Assembly: GCF_002874775.1 (NCBI RefSeq)
Contig: NZ_CP020991.1
Location: forward strand, 1,803,225-1,867,224
DNA: 64,000 nucleotides
Origin: Monoglobus pectinilyticus
GTDB lineage: Bacteria > Bacillota > Clostridia > Monoglobales > Monoglobaceae
Direction: 5' to 3'
Part shown: positions 7,663-48,960 of the stretch, one piece after another
Layout of the letters: each line of letters opens with the position of its first letter
Numbering within the stretch: position 1 is the first letter of the stretch
Notes under the pieces: generated by a model
The model's database searches: none
What the model was told of the DNA's origin: nothing
The model's input: only the letters and a program-made list of their open reading frames with translations
Translations under genes and position numbers: made by a program

Positions 7663-7714
7663 GTATACACAAATCCAAGAGATACTGTTACTTTGGATAT
7701 TAACAAAAGAATTA

Positions 7715-7825
7715 AATATTGGCAAACTATTTGAAAAAATAGGTCGCAAAGCTTTAGAGACTAAGTTGACCATTATAAGCAATATGCTTTTATGGAAGTT
7801 TCAATATGTCAGTCAGCTGCCTCCT
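7715..7825 (+). ncRNA. c-di-GMP-I (GEMM-I) riboswitch aptamer
   Basis: The sequence matches the GEMM-I consensus in order. GGCAAA (7721-7726) is followed by a perfect six-pair hairpin CTATTT-GAAA-AAATAG (7727-7742) with the GAAA tetraloop that docks in the third stem, then the hallmark GTCGCAAAGC (7743-7752). After a CTAAG junction comes a second arm (CCATTATAAGC paired with GCTTTTATGG) and the closing strand CAGCTGCC ending at 7821, which pairs with the initial GGCA. The aptamer lies directly between a strong promoter and an intrinsic terminator, ahead of a surface-protein gene. This is a common arrangement for c-di-GMP control of adhesion. Confidence 0.9.
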
Positions 7826-8083: not shown

Positions 8084-11000
8084 ATGAAAGTAAAAAAGAG
8101 AGCAGTTCGTTCTACTTTGGCTTGGATTATAACAGTCGCTATGATGGCTTCTATGTTTGTATCTTTGCCTGTTTTTGCAGACGAGGAGAAGTCATATGAT
8201 TATAACAACGTTCAGTCTTCAAATGTTACATCAAATGGATATTGGACTGACGTAGATAATTATGATATAAGCTGGTATACAGGAAACGAAAATAGCGGAT
8301 CATATGATTTAACTGATTCTGCCGATCTTGCAGGTCTTGCTTATTTGATAAATAATCAAAATGTAAGCTTTGGCGGGAAAACTATAAACTTAACAGGCTC
8401 TACATATGATATGTCAGCTCATTATTGGGTTCCCATTTCCGCGTGTTCAGGAGCAGGTCCTCATACCGGCGGCTCAAATTGTACTGCTTGGAGCGGAACT
8501 TTTGTGATAAAGGGTTCAGAATCTTCAACAATAACCGGTCTTAATATTATTGACACAGTTGCCCCGGCATCAAATGCGGCAAATTATAATTATTACACAG
8601 GGTTTATTGGACACATGAATGGTGATGTTGAAATAAGCAATATAGTGTTTGATAATTGTAATGTAGAAGATAAAGGAAATACTGTTGTTCAGGATTACAG
8701 CAGCGGCGCTGCCGTTGTGATCGGCGAAGCCAGAGGAGACAGCAAATTTAATAATGTAATTGTTCAGAACTCTGTTATTTCCGGATGCACAAAGGTCGCA
8801 GCCTTTTTAGGACTAAAAAATGGTTCTAATGGAGGTCTTACATTTACAGACTGTGCGTCAAATAATAATACATTTAAAGCGCTTTATTATTATAACGCTA
8901 TAGTTGGTGTTACTATTTCTTCAACTGCTACAGTTGTTGTTTTTGATAATACTTCTTCGGTTAATGATACTTTTGAAAAGTTTGACCCGAATAATGAAGC
9001 TCAATATTTTGGAGACGGCAATTATATTACTTACAACGGAATTGAGTATCTTCCTTTAGCACAAACTATCGGCGGCGTAAAATATGACGACGCTTTGGTT
9101 GTGGGAACAACAAAGGCTTTGGCAGCAGTTTTAGGAACTGAAGCTAAGGAAATTGTTGTTAACGGAACAACTTATCATGTTGGAGAAACTGCGGTAGACA
9201 ATGTTGCTAAGATAAACAGAAATGGAAAAGATGTATATTACACATCATTAAATGAAGCGCTGCAGAATGCTCAAAATGGTGAAACTATAGTTCCGGCAAG
9301 TGAGAATGTTGTAATAACAACTGCTGTAATAGCAGATTTAAATGCTGATATCACATTGTCAGGATTTAATTTTGGAGACGGCGGTTCTCTTATAGTTAAG
9401 GGAGAACATGCGTTTAACCTTGAAAACTGTAAGTTTGAAGCAACTATACCATATAGCGCAGCATCAGGAGTCAGAACACCTGTAAAGCTGAATAACCATG
9501 GTAAGACAACAGTTAAAAATAATACGTTTGGAACAGCAAACGATGGAGTATATTACAATGCTGTAGAATTTGATGTAGGCAGTGAAACCGCTAAAACCGG
9601 AATTACAGTGGCTGACGGCACTGAAATATCCGGAAACAGTTTTGGTAAAATATCTAATAATTCAATCAGTATTTATAATGTTGATGAGGGAGCTACTATT
9701 ACTATAAAAAATAATGAGTACAAAGTAGCCGCTAACGCATTGAGACTAAGCAATGGATTAGTTGATAAAGTAAACGCTGTATTTAATATTGAGAACGAAT
9801 GGTATAAAGCGACTGGTACCGGAGATTATGCTGGCTACGCATTATTCCAACGCTCATACGGCGGAACAGTTCAGCAGGATATGACAGGTTATGTGATTAA
9901 CTTTACAGACCTAAAATATGGAGCAGATAAAACAATTGTTACTTCAAATGACCCGCAGCAATATTATGTTTGGGACGGAAGCAAAATTGTGAACGATAAT
10001 AATGTTCCTAACGTAACGTTTAATGATTCAACTCCGACACAGTCGCCTGAACCAACGGCAGAACCTGTAGCAAAGATAAACAGAGAGGGAAAAGATGTAT
10101 ATTATCAGTCCCTTAAAGCAGCTATAGAAGATGCAAAGGTAAACGAGACAATAACTCCTGCTTCAGGCTCAGTTGTAATAACAACTGCAGAGAACGCAGT
10201 CCTTGCTAATGATATAACAGTATCAGGGTTTAATTTCGGAGACGGTGGAGCGCTTACAGTGAGCGGAAACGGAGCATTTACAATTACTGATTGTAAATTT
10301 GAAGCAACTGCCGCTGGAGTAAAAACACCATTGAATCTTAAAAATTATGGAAAGACTATAGTAAAGAACAACACATTTGGAACTGAAAATGATGGTGTTT
10401 ACTATAATGCTGTAGAGTTTGATGTAGGCAGTGAAGTAAATAAAAATGGTGTTAAAGTAGCGGATGGAACAGAAATATCCGGGAATCATTTTGGAAAGAT
10501 AACTCATAATGGAATCAGTATATATAATGTTGAAGAGAATGCTACGATTACTATAAAGGATAATATATACGAAATATCAGCTAGCGCTTTAAGGCTTAGC
10601 AACGGTTTGGTTGATAAAGTAAATGCAATTTTTAACATAGAAAATGAGTGGTATAAGACAACTGACCCAACAGAAGGATGGGAAGGATATGCAACTTTAC
10701 AGACCGTGTATAAAAATGGTAATCCTGAACAGGATGTTACAGGATATGTGCTGAACTTTAAAAACTTATATTATGGCGACGAGAGTAATAAAAAGGTGGC
10801 AGAAGACGGAGATGGAGTGCAGCAGATTGTTGTATGGAATGGAACTGATTTCGTAACTGACGCTGAAAAACTACCAACAGTATCAATTACAAATGATGTT
10901 TTGCCGACTCAGTCTCCTGAAGCAACAGCAACAACAGAGCCGTCAGCAACACCCGAAGCAACGGCAACAACAGAGCCATCAGCGACACCTGAGGCAACGG

Positions 11001-41149: not shown

Positions 41150-41346
41150 TTAATAAGCACCTCCTAAAGTGTTTTCACTGTATACTATGACAAAATTAAG
41201 AATTGGTGAAAAGTTTTTAAAAAAGATTTACATAATTTCAATATTATGATATTATTTCATGTAGTGAAAAGGATTTTTGCATATATGCTCTTACAGAGCC
41301 GAACATTATGCGATGGCGTAAAATATGAAAGCGGAGGGATCAGTTA

Positions 41347-43020
41347 ATGAAAACCGATATTGAAATCGCTCAGGAGTCCGTTATGCAGCCTATTGCTGAG
41401 ATTGCTGAAAAACTTGGCATGTCTGCAGATGATATTGAGCTTTATGGAAAGTATAAAGCGAAACTCAGCGAGGATTATATTGAAAGTTTAGAGGACAAGC
41501 CTGAAGGAAAACTTGTTTTGGTGACAGCTATAAACCCTACGCCGGCAGGCGAAGGTAAAACGACTGTTACGGTGGGGCTGGGAGAAGCAATGCCCAAGAT
41601 TGGTGAAAACGCTGTCATTGCTCTCCGTGAACCGTCGATGGGTCCGGTTATGGGGATTAAGGGCGGCGCAGCCGGGGGCGGCTATGCCCAGGTTGTTCCT
41701 ATGGAAGATATAAACCTGCATTTTACCGGGGATATGCATGCAATAACAGCCGCAAATAATTTGCTGTCGGCCGCAATAGATAATCATATCCACCAGGGAA
41801 ATAAGCTGATGATAGACCTGAGACAGATAACCTGGAAACGCTGTCTTGATATGAATGACAGGGCTTTGAGGGAAGTTATTATAGGGCTTGGCGGAAAAAT
41901 CAACGGATTTCCGCGTCAGGATGGTTTTAATATTACTGTTGCAAGTGAAATAATGGCGATATTATGCCTTGCTAAAAATATTGATGATTTAAGAGAAAGA
42001 ATTGGAAGAATTGTTATAGGCTATAATTTGTCAGGCGAGCCGGTAACTGCAAAACAATTGGAGGTAGAAGGCGCGATGACTCTTCTGCTCCATGACGCTA
42101 TAAAGCCGAACCTGGTGCAAACCCTTGAAAATACCCCATGTCTAATGCATGGAGGTCCGTTTGCCAATATAGCGCACGGATGCAATTCTATCAGAGCAAC
42201 CAGAGCGGGACTTAAACTGGCGGATTACTGTATAACTGAAGCCGGATTCGGAAGCGATTTGGGCGCTGAGAAGTTTTTTGACATTAAATGTCGTTTTGCC
42301 GGATTGAATCCTGACTGTGTGGTGCTTGTGGCAACTGTTAAGGCACTTAAATACAACAGCGGTCAGATAAAGGGAGAAGCGCTGAAGTATGAGAATTTGG
42401 AAGCCTTGAGCTTAGGTATAAACAACCTTGGCAAGCACATAGAAAATATGCGGAAGTATGGGGTTCCTGTAGTGGTTGCTATTAACAGATTTGATACTGA
42501 TACTGACGCGGAGCTTGATTTTATAGAAAATTACTGCGCTGAGAAAAATGTGAAGTGTTCAATGTGTGAAGTGTTTGCAAAAGGCGGAGACGGAGGAGTG
42601 GATCTCGCAAAGAAAGTCGTTGAGACTATAAAGTCTGAGCCTTCTGAGTTTAAGCCGATTTATAACGTTAATCTGCCGATAAAGGAAAAGATTGAGACAA
42701 TAGCACGGGAGATATACGGAGCGGATGGAGTAACTTATACCGCCACCGCTAACAGGCAGATATTGAATCTGACAAATTTGGGGTTTGATAAAATGCCGGT
42801 GTGTATGGCGAAGACTCAGTATTCGCTGTCTGATGACCCGTCACTTTTGGGGCGTCCTTCCGGGTTTGATATAACAATCAGAGAAGTAAACGTATCGAGC
42901 GGAGCCGGATTTATAGTTGCGCTGACCGGAGCGGTAATGACCATGCCGGGGCTGCCGAAAGTTCCGGCTGCAAATAATATGGATATTGACAGAAACGGAA
43001 CAATTGTAGGATTGTTTTAA
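41347..43020 (+). CDS. fhs: Formate-tetrahydrofolate ligase
   Basis: The 557-residue enzyme makes 10-formyl-THF from formate, THF and ATP in the cytosol, supplying one-carbon units for purines or for acetogenic-type metabolism. Signatures: ATP-binding loop [41 protein letters not shown], and [20 protein letters not shown]. Length is normal. AGCGGAGGG precedes the ATG. No other Wood-Ljungdahl genes adjoin, so a general folate role is as likely as acetogenesis. It is followed after 27 bases by mnmG on the same strand. Confidence 0.97.
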
Positions 43021-45842: not shown

Positions 45843-45884
45843 AACAGCCGGCTTGTTATTTGTTTCAAGCCGGCCTGTTTTTTT
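45843..45884 (+). terminator. Lipoprotein gene terminator
   Basis: AACAGCCGGCTTG pairs with CAAGCCGGCCTGTT, followed by seven T, starting three bases after the stop codon. Confidence 0.9.
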
Positions 45885-45976
45885 GGCCGAATTTTTTGAT
45901 AAGAAGTTTTTTTCGTATAGTGTGCGACGTATTTCGACAAAATAATCGAAATTATTCACAAATAGTTAATTTTTTC

Positions 45977-46110
45977 TTTACAGATTATTCACTTACCAAT
46001 GCAAAAAGGTGGTATAATATGTATTGTAACAAGAAATTGTTACAGAGTTAAAACATAACTCCCTCCCTTTTAATTTGTAAGACCGTTCCCCCAAACGGTC
46101 TTATTTTTTT
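45977..46110 (+). ncRNA. Small RNA gene, copy A, with promoter and terminator
   Basis: A TATAAT (46013-46018) with extended GGTGG context predicts a start near 46025. The transcript of about 86 nt has three hairpins. The first is TGTAACAA-GAAA-TTGTTACA (46025-46044), with a GNRA tetraloop at the 5' end. The second is GAGTT/AACTC (46045-46061). Then comes an unpaired CCTCCCTTTTAATTTG. The last is an intrinsic terminator AAGACCGTT/AACGGTCTT with a CCCCC loop and seven T. No ORF fits. A second copy exists in inverted orientation at 48433-48566. Their only difference inside the RNA is GAAA to GGAA in the tetraloop, which keeps the GNRA form. The C-tract can pair with Shine-Dalgarno sequences, as in RsaE-type sRNAs. 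I recognise no known family. Confidence 0.85.
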
Positions 46111-46794
46111 GTTTATAATTAAAAATATGATGCAAAGTTTAGATATTATTAACGGAAAGAAAGCGATTCACTGCAAGAGAGTGATTCACATTCTTTAAAG
46201 ACGTTATTTTTTTGAGTGCTGCACTCTTGCAAAAACAATGGTTGGCGACATAATACTTTCTGAATTCATAAAAATCACTTCGTATAATTGCAGTGTCATT
46301 TTGCTCTTGAAGAAGAGCTGAATTATTTAGACTTTGCGGATTGGTTTAATTTCCTTTCCGCGATATGGTTTTATTGGATGAGCCTTTTTGCGTTTTTTAT
46401 ACGGGAAACTATAATTTTTAGAAAATAATTTGTTCCGCAAAGAGGGCGGCAAAATTATTGAGAAATATCAGACATTCTTTTTTTGCATAAAAAGTTTAAT
46501 TCTTTAATGTTGATTTTATGATGTTTACCAACCCTTTTATAATAAAATATTTGCTGTAAGTTTCTTTTATTATTGACGTACATATAAAGTATCTTATTTA
46601 AATACACTAATTTAATAATTAATACAAGACTTGAATTATTCATGTTTTTGTGGTAAGGTAATGACATAAAATGATAAAAATTTTTAAATATTTTACATAA
46701 AGCTGTAAAGCAGAAAATATATTTGATTTGAATATACGTATTAATGATGTATTGATTTCTCCATATGGTATAGTTCGGTTAAGATATTTCTTCT
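46111..46794. other. AT-rich region without recognised genes
   Basis: No ORF with coding character and a usable start was found. A leftward 70-codon frame (46455-46667) lacks a ribosome binding site and family features. Short hairpins occur (GAGTGC-T-GCACTC near 46216). The region lies between small RNA copy A and the 222-bp tandem repeats. Confidence 0.5.
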
Positions 46795-47360
46795 GAAGTT
46801 CACTAAAAAAACACTGTATATAGAAAATAACTATAAAAAAATAAATTATAAAAGATGTGGTTTTGCAAGCATCGGAGGGCAGATGAAATCTGCCACGTAA
46901 GGCGCGCAGTCACGGAAAAATTTAATAATTATATTACAATGAACTATTCTAAGTATGTTCACGCTACGCGTGAGATGGCAGCTCACCTAACGAGGTGTGC
47001 ATAAGCACACCCTACCGAAGTTCACTAAAAAACACCGTGTATAGAAAAATAACTATAAGATAATAGATTATAAAAAAGATTGGTTTAGCAAGCATCGGAG
47101 GGCAGATGAAATCTGCCACGTAAGGCGCGCAGCCGCGGGAAAATTTAATAATATTATTACAATCAACTATTCTAAGTATGTTCACGCTACGCGTAAGATG
47201 GCAGCTCACCTAACGAGGTGTGCCTACGCACACCCTTCCGAAGTTCACTAAAAACACTGTGTATAGAAAAATAACTATAAAATAATAAAATATAAAAACG
47301 AGTGGTATAGCAAGCATCGGCAGGTGTGATTGTGACCACACCTGCCGATGTTCACTAACA
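46795..47360. repeat. 222-bp tandem repeat, about 2.5 copies, built from palindromic units
   Basis: Units start at GAAGTTCACTAAAAA (46795, 47017, 47240), with periods of 222 and 223. Each holds an AT-rich block, a B-type palindrome (GCATCGG, GGGCAGATGAAATCTGCC, ACGTAAGGCGCGCAG) and an A-type palindrome (TGTTCACGCTACGCG.., GGCAGCTCACCTAACGAG, a GTGTGC/GCACAC stem, CCCTACC). The third copy is shortened and ends in CAGGTGTGATTGTGACCACACCTG. The same family forms the 29.5-33.7 kb islands. Confidence 0.9.
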
Positions 47361-47396
47361 AACATCCTTAATTTTTCTGTATAGCTTTCTGTAGAC
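47345..47396. repeat. 52-bp repeat, left copy (inverted partner at 48778)
   Basis: CCGATGTTCACTAACAAACA through CTTTCTGTAGAC matches the inverse of 48778-48829 at 49 of 52 positions. The pair brackets the HAD phosphatase gene. Confidence 0.85.
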
Positions 47397-47576
47397 CTTC
47401 CGGTTATACTAAAATAAGTAATTAAATATCACATATTTTACAGGTAGGGTCACAATTTGAGTGTTCAAAAACTGATGCGTATAACTAAATCATATTTTAT
47501 CTGTTTTGAGATATAGTCCGTACCGGTAAAATTTAAGTTTCATATATTATGTTGATTTAAGAAAGGATGAAATAAA

Positions 47577-48245
47577 ATGGCTGATAAAAAGATTAAAGGC
47601 GTGCTTTTTGATATGGACGGCACTATGTTTGACACAGAAACAATGTCAATTTATATTTGGGCGGCAACTGCTAGATATTACAATATAAATATTTCCAGAG
47701 AGTTTATGATGGAATGTATGGGTCTCAGCACGAAGGCTATAGGAGAAAAATTTGATAAGGCGTTCGGAGATGTTCTGAATTATGAGACATTTCGCAGCGC
47801 TAAAAATAAAGTTATGGAAGAGATTGTGGAAGAGGACGGAGTGCCACACAAAAAGGGTCTGACGGAAATCCTTGATTATATTAAGGAAAACGGGATTAAA
47901 GCTGCTATTGCTACTTCTACATCTAACGAGAGAGCCGTGTATAATCTTGAGGAGGGAAAAGTTATACAGTATTTTGACGAAGTCATAAGCGGAGATATGG
48001 TGGACAAGAGCAAACCGGAACCCGATATTTATTTGCTTGCCGCCAAGAAACTCGGTCTAAGACCTGAGGAGTGTATGGTTTTAGAGGATTCAAAAAACGG
48101 CATAATCTCTGCCAGGAGAGCAAATTGTTTGGCGGTGCTTGTTCCGGATATAATACCGGTCGATGATGAAATGATTGAAGCCGCTGATTATGTATGTGAG
48201 GATCTTTTAGAAGTTATTGATTTGATTAAGAGAATAAATAAATAA
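47577..48245 (+). CDS. HAD-superfamily hydrolase, beta-phosphoglucomutase-like
   Basis: The 222-residue protein has the HAD motifs in order: FDMDGTMFDTE (nucleophile and acid/base Asp), ATSTSNE, KPEPDIY with the Lys, and VLEDSKNGI with metal-binding Asp. The alpha-helical cap after motif 1 places it in subfamily I beside beta-phosphoglucomutases and phosphatases. AAAGGATG precedes the ATG. It is the only protein gene in a 3-kb island of repeats and small RNAs, bracketed by inverted copies of both. Substrate is probably a small phosphosugar, but sequence alone cannot decide. Confidence 0.9.
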   Translation: MADKKIKGVLFDMDGTMFDTETMSIYIWAATARYYNINISREFMMECMGLSTKAIGEKFDKAFGDVLNYETFRSAKNKVMEEIVEEDGVPHKKGLTEILDYIKENGIKAAIATSTSNERAVYNLEEGKVIQYFDEVISGDMVDKSKPEPDIYLLAAKKLGLRPEECMVLEDSKNGIISARRANCLAVLVPDIIPVDDEMIEAADYVCEDLLEVIDLIKRINK

Positions 48246-48432
48246 TAAATATCAGGGCTTAAAAAATATAGTTCAATTGTTATGTAGAATGAAAATATTT
48301 AAAAACCATTGTAAAAGGCTTGTTCTGACGTGAACCTAAAAATCGGACTTTTTTGGGTTTGTTCATTATAGTCAAAACACAATGGTTTTTTGCTTATTTT
48401 TAATAATAACTCTTTTATAACACATTTTATCT

Positions 48433-48566
48433 AAAAAAATAAGACCGTTTGGGGGAACGGTCTTACAAATTAAAAGGGAGGGAGTTATGTTTTAACTCTG
48501 TAACAATTCCTTGTTACAATACATATTATACCACCTTTTCTTGTTTATGGGTGAATAATCTGTAAA
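48433..48566 (-). ncRNA. Small RNA gene, copy B, inverted
   Basis: Minus-strand copy of the RNA at 45977-46110. TATAAT lies at 48525-48530, predicted start near 48518, terminator T-run at 48433-48439. Within the transcript only the first tetraloop differs (GGAA). Upstream, ACAGATTATTCAC and AAAAGGTGGTATAAT are conserved while about a dozen bases between them have diverged at equal length. This marks the functional promoter blocks. The two genes transcribe toward each other across the HAD gene. Confidence 0.85.
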
Positions 48567-48777
48567 AATCAAATTAACAGTTTGTTAACATAAAAAAAGG
48601 TGTTATTTAACATATTATAGTAATTTTATATTCATTATTAAACGTTTGAAATGTGACGATAATAATAGTTTAATTTTGATGAAATTTATTAAAAAAATAA
48701 TTGGTTGATTTATGTAATGTATTAAGTCATATAACTTTCTTCCGAAATAATAAGTTGTTATGTAATATAAGTGTAAA

Positions 48778-48829
48778 GTCGACAGAAAACTATACAGAAA
48801 AATTAAGGATGTTTTTTAGTGAACATCGG
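48778..48829. repeat. 52-bp repeat, right copy
   Basis: Inverse of 47345-47396 with three mismatches. It runs directly into the palindromic unit at 48819-48958. Confidence 0.85.
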
Positions 48830-48960
48830 TAGGGTGTGACCCCACCTGTGAAGGTGTGGTCACAGACATTGTAGGTTTTTCAATACAAAGTAATTTGTAT
48901 AACACACACTTTTAAAAAAAGTGTGGTCACAGCCCTGCCGATGCTTGCTAAACAACAGTT
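48815..48960. repeat. Palindromic unit with long nested core
   Basis: GTGAACATCGGTAGGGTGTG at one end and CCCTGCCGATGCTTGC at the other. Between them lie nested stems GTGTGACC..GGTGTGGTCACA and CACACTTTTTTTAAAAGTGTG-like strings shared with 31915-32000. It is the largest core of the family after the left arm at 31915. Confidence 0.75.

Follow-up and report, generated by a model that had tools for sequence, protein, structure and literature searches.

The DNA analysed here, a stretch of 64,000 nucleotides from the genome of Monoglobus pectinilyticus (hereafter, the window), carries two loci for a small RNA of approximately 86 nt which, as judged from sequence comparison, represents a new RNA family of a known kind, the C-rich anti-Shine–Dalgarno small RNAs, and is absent from Rfam 15. 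Copy A occupies positions 46025–46110 of the forward strand, its start being predicted from the −10 site, and copy B positions 48433–48518 of the reverse strand. The covariance model R1 matches them at 109 and 108.4 bits, respectively, each being itself a training sequence of that model.

A repeat search of the window returned the two loci as an inverted pair (45955–46119 and 48424–48588; 165 nt, 88% complementary), and BLAST aligned them at 93% identity across 134 nt, so that the initial annotation, which had described two 134-bp loci in opposite orientation, was right on this point. Its positions for the TATAAT sites, the hairpins, the C tract and the CCCCC terminator loop also held, as did its observation that a single base differs between the two 86-nt RNAs, in the loop of the first hairpin (GAAA versus GGAA). 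Two matches were obtained with the 165-nt query (E 0.001) in the whole one-contig genome of 2,757,678 bases, and likewise with the covariance model. Both 92-nt stretches fold at −26.2 kcal/mol, with z-scores of −6.66 (copy A) and −5.92 (copy B) against dinucleotide shuffles, and the longest closed open reading frame within any of the 38 copies known from this and related genomes has 15 codons. Rfam 15, which holds models of both LhrC and RsaE, gave no match at either RNA locus at the gathering threshold; with E values of up to 10, eight matches were returned across 45900–48650, all far under their own gathering scores. As far as Rfam 15 goes, the earlier view that the RNA belongs to no described family thus stands.

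A covariance search of relatives, suggested from the outset, located the RNA in 24 of the 38 genomes of the Monoglobus family and gave no credible RNA in the 13 genomes of the order that fall outside it. The model, trained on 30 distinct copies and run with stricter filters on 51 genomes of the order, reached E 0.05 in 26 of them, these E-values being rough and the training copies matching by construction; the matches in genomes G012 and G041 (L109, L110), which are without the core, were judged to be chance. By family we mean our group f1, which we infer to be the Monoglobaceae; in the NCBI taxonomy, Monoglobus stands in the Monoglobaceae and Ructibacterium in the Oscillospiraceae. All 12 genomes of Monoglobus (g1) carry the RNA, as do 2/2 in g3, 1/2 in g4, 1/1 in g5, 5/5 in g6, 1/1 in g7 and 2/4 in g8, versus 0/2 in g2 and 0/9 in g9, some of the RNA-negative genomes being incomplete (G027, 74%; G030, 72%). 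Among the carriers are uncultured Monoglobus, Candidatus Monoglobus merdigallinarum, Ructibacterium gallinarum, Candidatus Roslinia caecavium and rumen assemblies labelled Ruminococcus. An exact-pattern scan of GTDB species genomes yielded 31 stretches, 30 of which lay within genomes already modelled; the remaining one (L141) had no model match and, once read, was judged to be chance, as was the weak homologue L028. Loci L019 and L023–L025 gave no model match either.

Two copies are present in each of the 12 Monoglobus genomes. One of these genomes, G006, has a third, weak match (L046, 5272–5342, reverse strand; 34.7 bits) in which the terminator is kept and the core is missing, and which is a third, broken copy. 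The initial annotation had given weight to the inverted twin layout, for which comparison gives no support. Two of the 12 genomes (G000 and G008) show such a close inverted arrangement, their copies facing opposite ways at a distance of 2–3 kb; the copies lie 10–25 kb apart on one contig in four genomes and on different contigs in six, and direct tandems occur in G017 and G018. When copies were compared across eleven Monoglobus genomes (G008, with its copies not assigned to A or B, being excluded), copies A shared 88.6% with one another between genomes and copies B 88.9%, versus 67–86% for A and B within a genome, except for 98% in the window genome. The near-identity of the window twins looks like local gene conversion. 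Copy A is found approximately 1 kb 3′ of an MnmG-type gene (Pfam GIDA in the window) in 11 of the 12 genomes; copy B has no such constant neighbourhood. Between and beside the RNA genes of the window (46805–47360 and 48763–48840) a unit of approximately 223 bp is repeated in tandem, with 174-nt blocks 94% alike, one partial block and related inverted pieces; similar-looking pieces were seen by eye upstream of the gene at L148, and the whole looks like a dispersed repeat family.

The structure of the RNA is best judged from 38 model-aligned copies, 34 of which are distinct. In the 5′ hairpin (copy A, 46025–46044, forward strand; copy B, 48499–48518, reverse strand), two-sided changes occur at 8 of 8 pairs and 89.7% of the cells are paired across the distinct copies, the outermost pair being unpaired in 17 of the 34. 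This hairpin and the terminator hairpin, with its CCCCCA loop and subsequent T run (copy A, 46078–46103, forward strand; copy B, 48440–48465, reverse strand), together have two-sided changes at 17 of 18 pairs, with 92.3% of cells pairing. Their covariation score is 0.503, versus 0.195 for shuffled alignments (none of 500 shuffles as high) and at most 0.160 for slid controls, in an alignment that was fitted to the tested structure and hence favours it. RNAalifold, given the same alignment, predicted 15 pairs, 14 of them with two-sided changes. By this comparative evidence, the two covarying hairpins mark a real RNA gene. Of the three hairpins described initially, the first and the terminator are thus upheld; the middle one is not, as it has two-sided changes at 0 of 6 pairs and 68.2% of cells paired (about one third broken), Monoglobus and g3 being where the alignment shows it in its most complete form. 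Nor does the GNRA tetraloop, presented as a kept feature, persist across the family: 16 of 38 copies have GNRA in the loop of the first hairpin and 9 have GUCA, larger loops occurring among the rest.

The most conserved part of the RNA lies between the 5′ hairpin and the terminator, whereas stems, linker length and terminator vary. This core, ACAUAACUCCCUCCC, does not vary among 35 of the 38 aligned copies, the exceptions being CCCTCTC in one copy and ACACAA in two; in the window it is found as ACATAACTCCCTCCC, the proposed seed, at 46053–46067 (copy A, forward strand) and, on the same basis, at 48476–48490 (copy B, reverse strand). The CCCTCCC part of the core has a mean unpaired probability of 0.90 over the 38 copies, and the ACATAACT half one of 0.60 on average and of just 0.39 in the window copies. 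A CCCC stretch is present 3′ of the core in 34 of 38 copies. The reverse complement of the core, GGGAGGGAGUUAUGU, has the layout of a Shine–Dalgarno sequence, a spacer and an AUG. These figures bear out the earlier proposal that the C tract lies exposed and would suit ribosome sites as partners. A literature search for CUCCCUCCC gave, among the matches listed, none that was about a bacterial small RNA by its title.

Upstream of both loci lies an array that the initial annotation did not mention, composed of four TTNACA-like boxes with an 11-bp period (copy A, 45955–45993, forward strand; copy B, 48550–48588, reverse strand). Copy A scores 49.5 bits, the best of the window, and copy B 47.4 bits with a zero-mismatch pattern match, on a matrix built from the same promoter rows. 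The spacing of 11 bp is exact, and the fourth box stands at about −35, ahead of the −10 site (TATAAT at 46013–46018 in copy A, forward strand, and at 48525–48530 in copy B, reverse strand). Across 33 distinct promoter rows, TATAMT is present in all, with a G two bases 5′ of the −10 site in 31; every row has TT in columns 21–22, 32–33 and 54–55 and A in columns 24, 35 and 57, and columns 44 and 46 are T and A, respectively, in the 31 of 31 rows having a letter there. N-TATAMT is preceded by TG in 20 of the 33 rows and by GG in 8, so that an extended −10 is common without being universal. The rows of G013 and G021 lack exactly one 11-bp unit. In the window's own genome, the array pattern retrieves the RNA genes at zero and one mismatch and three weaker places, versus two places for the reversed control. 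A third array match, at L148, has its last box 2–3 bases from TATAAT and was taken as chance.

An 11-nt direct repeat is the unit recognized by OmpR/PhoB-type regulators in general, and the four-box layout is typical of response regulators of this type; PHO boxes in particular are described as built from such a unit (PMC4415409). Readings of the boxes as DnaA-boxes or Rex sites were set aside, since single boxes are all that they account for. The array was absent around ten Trans_reg_C matches and pstS, in stretches of approximately 3 kb each, and nine regulators compared with NCBIfam gave none at the curated cut-off among the best 25 matches per protein. The region upstream of pstS in the window's own genome contains TTAACC/TTAACA boxes, yet scores −18 with the array matrix.

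Among characterized systems, the candidate would be closest in mode of action to LhrC of Listeria, by analogy and without being a member of that family. LhrC, an experimentally tested precedent for such an architecture, is reported to exist in near-identical copies whose expression depends on a two-component system, to carry CUCCC(...)UUUU in the terminator loop and, single-stranded, in the stretch joining two stem-loops, and to bind an mRNA over its Shine–Dalgarno (PMC4132741). Both RNAs have several copies per genome (two in each Monoglobus genome) and a C-rich stretch in the linker, here with the CCCC after the core. However, LhrC has 111–114 nt and five copies, versus approximately 86 nt and two copies here, carries its motif also in loop A, where our RNA has none, and binds Hfq, which was not detected in Monoglobus; in addition, Rfam gave no match here and none of the eight sub-threshold matches was named LhrC. 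Membership is rejected because sequence, motif layout and Hfq all fail. RoxS/RsaE of Bacillus and Staphylococcus is described as having C-rich regions able to pair with ribosome sites, control by the response regulator ResD/SrrA and a likely extended −10 promoter (PMC4409812). This likeness, in C-rich regions and promoter type, is less close than that to LhrC: RoxS has four C-rich regions with a repeated CCCCUUUGUU, which occurs in 0 of our 38 copies, and again there is no Rfam match. IsrR of Staphylococcus is likewise a C-rich small RNA of a Firmicute, described as induced by iron starvation, and any sequence relation to it was compared through Rfam alone. The single-stranded UCCC-type motif of the C-rich anti-Shine–Dalgarno small RNAs of Firmicutes is present in the RNA described here. 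For Monoglobus itself, no small RNA work was found in the literature searched, where the sole match, as far as its accessible text goes, concerns fetal growth restriction.

We propose that the two loci encode a trans-acting base-pairing small RNA of approximately 86 nt, whose core, above all its unpaired C tract, would block the translation of several mRNAs by pairing with their G-rich Shine–Dalgarno and start-codon regions. An OmpR/PhoB-type response regulator would probably switch the RNA on through the four 11-bp-spaced boxes, which would take the place of a −35 site. In Monoglobus, the RNA would have to act without Hfq: none was detected in the 12 genomes, and of the 38 family genomes two, both of g3, were found to have it, the same search giving matches in 5 of 14 control genomes. 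On the sequence evidence we regard this mechanism, taken as a whole, as reasonably probable, our confidence having been lowered slightly by the partial pairing of one half of the core in the window copies.

The target search gave a divided result. At the 33 starts of the window, the predicted core duplex is stronger than in coding interiors (mean −10.8 versus −7.8 kcal/mol, p = 1.5 × 10^−4); against shuffled RNAs of equal composition, however, the median z over the same starts is just −0.34. The affinity of the core for ribosome sites is thus mostly due to composition. No conserved target was found across the family genomes. The example originally put forward, a GAGGGA before an SLH stalk gene (probably the start at 8084), is unremarkable, ranking fourth of the 33 starts by duplex energy, and its longest match of 7 is common to 3 of 10 starts checked, itself included. 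The large protein gene at 8084 opens with a signal-peptide-like stretch, and a c-di-GMP-I riboswitch (7711–7824, forward strand, 63.8 bits) lies approximately 260 nt upstream of it. The strongest predicted pairing in the window is with the ribosome site of the formate–tetrahydrofolate ligase gene fhs (Pfam FTHFS; 41333–41349, forward strand), at −20.2 kcal/mol and z = −4.5, but seven relatives are weaker (−11.5 to −16.4 kcal/mol), and fhs was rejected as a conserved target.

The same holds for murA. Most family genomes have three murA-type matches, and in 8 of the 12 Monoglobus genomes, the window's own not among them, the ribosome site of the lowest-scoring one fits the core. Forty upstream regions were compared, 26 of the third paralogue (by score rank) and 14 others; for the third paralogue the site agrees with the core at 9 of 15 positions in the window's own genome and at 7 to 11 of 15 in other genera, and murA was discarded.

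The near-complement GGAGGGAGTTATG, with at most one mismatch, has 36 matches outside the RNA genes in the 12 Monoglobus genomes, versus 11 for the reversed control. Over all 24 RNA-bearing genomes it has 78 such matches in 53.5 Mb (1.46 per Mb), and in the 14 RNA-free genomes 28 in 19.6 Mb (1.43 per Mb), the reversed control giving 31 and 15, respectively. As these rates are much alike with and without the RNA, the surplus over the reversed pattern looks like a property of ribosome sites that does not depend on the RNA. The 13-nt AAGGGAGGGAGTT, the perfect complement of AACUCCCUCCCUU, has 18 matches beyond the RNA genes themselves in the RNA-bearing genomes and 18 in the RNA-free ones (control, 37 and 30); it is rarer per Mb in the RNA-bearing genomes, a drop that the control shares (Fisher p = 0.68). 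When 40 of the 42 near-complements present outside Monoglobus, in the 12 other RNA-bearing genomes, were examined by eye, no gene recurred across genera, repeated genes being confined to one genus, e.g. infA in two rumen genomes. The ribosome site of infA (Pfam IF-1) contains AAGGGAGGGAGTT in both (L287 and L291), and the same 13-mer is present in a third rumen genome (G026:C19). At L058 (1490–1513), a ribosome site reading AAATTAAAAG-A-GGAGGGAGTTAT complements the extended Monoglobus core apart from a single base that bulges out; its gene encodes a 97-aa protein without Pfam match and is preceded by two small repressor-like ORFs.

That a 15-nt core is kept, yet has no conserved mRNA target, could also be explained if the core were held by a protein or soaked up another RNA, and the failure to detect Hfq in Monoglobus accords with such a role. 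We consider this unlikely, while placing it foremost among the alternatives, for the C tract is an anti-Shine–Dalgarno sequence in an unpaired linker, and 34 of the 38 copies have CCCC once more beyond the core. Marginally less credible is a general throttle on translation, in which the RNA would compete with 16S rRNA for very many Shine–Dalgarno sites and have no specific targets. The complement of the core does read as Shine–Dalgarno, spacer and AUG, and the mostly compositional affinity, together with the lack of a specific conserved target, would be expected in that case; conservation nevertheless extends to ACAUAA past the C tract, which pure Shine–Dalgarno blocking would not need. Slightly more doubtful again is its more elaborate form, an Hfq-independent soluble anti-Shine–Dalgarno, in which a response-regulator-induced 15-nt antisense to the generic initiation site would throttle translation broadly rather than act on a few chosen mRNAs.

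Two further readings deny the existence of a separate functional RNA. The recurrent place of copy A past the MnmG-type gene might suggest a cis element, the terminator or 3′ end of the lipoprotein-like gene that precedes it, but the RNA has its own promoter with a box array, copy B and the copies in other genera adjoin other genes, and a hairpin with a T run, noted by eye at 45845–45885, separates the upstream gene from copy A; we hold this reading to be very improbable. Hardly tenable at all is a functionless mobile or repeat element in two copies: the inverted pair 2.3 kb apart and the other repeats beside it would fit, but there are only two copies in the genome, and the compensatory changes and the conservation of core and promoter across genera stand strongly against it. 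A regulator-activated RNA that would block ribosome sites by pairing is the reading that we prefer.

With this finding, the gut lineage gains a well-supported regulatory RNA family that Rfam 15 does not contain. Its freely varying stems, set against an almost frozen core, offer experiments a clearly delimited seed, and, Hfq being apparently absent, the family lends itself to testing how such RNAs may act without that helper.
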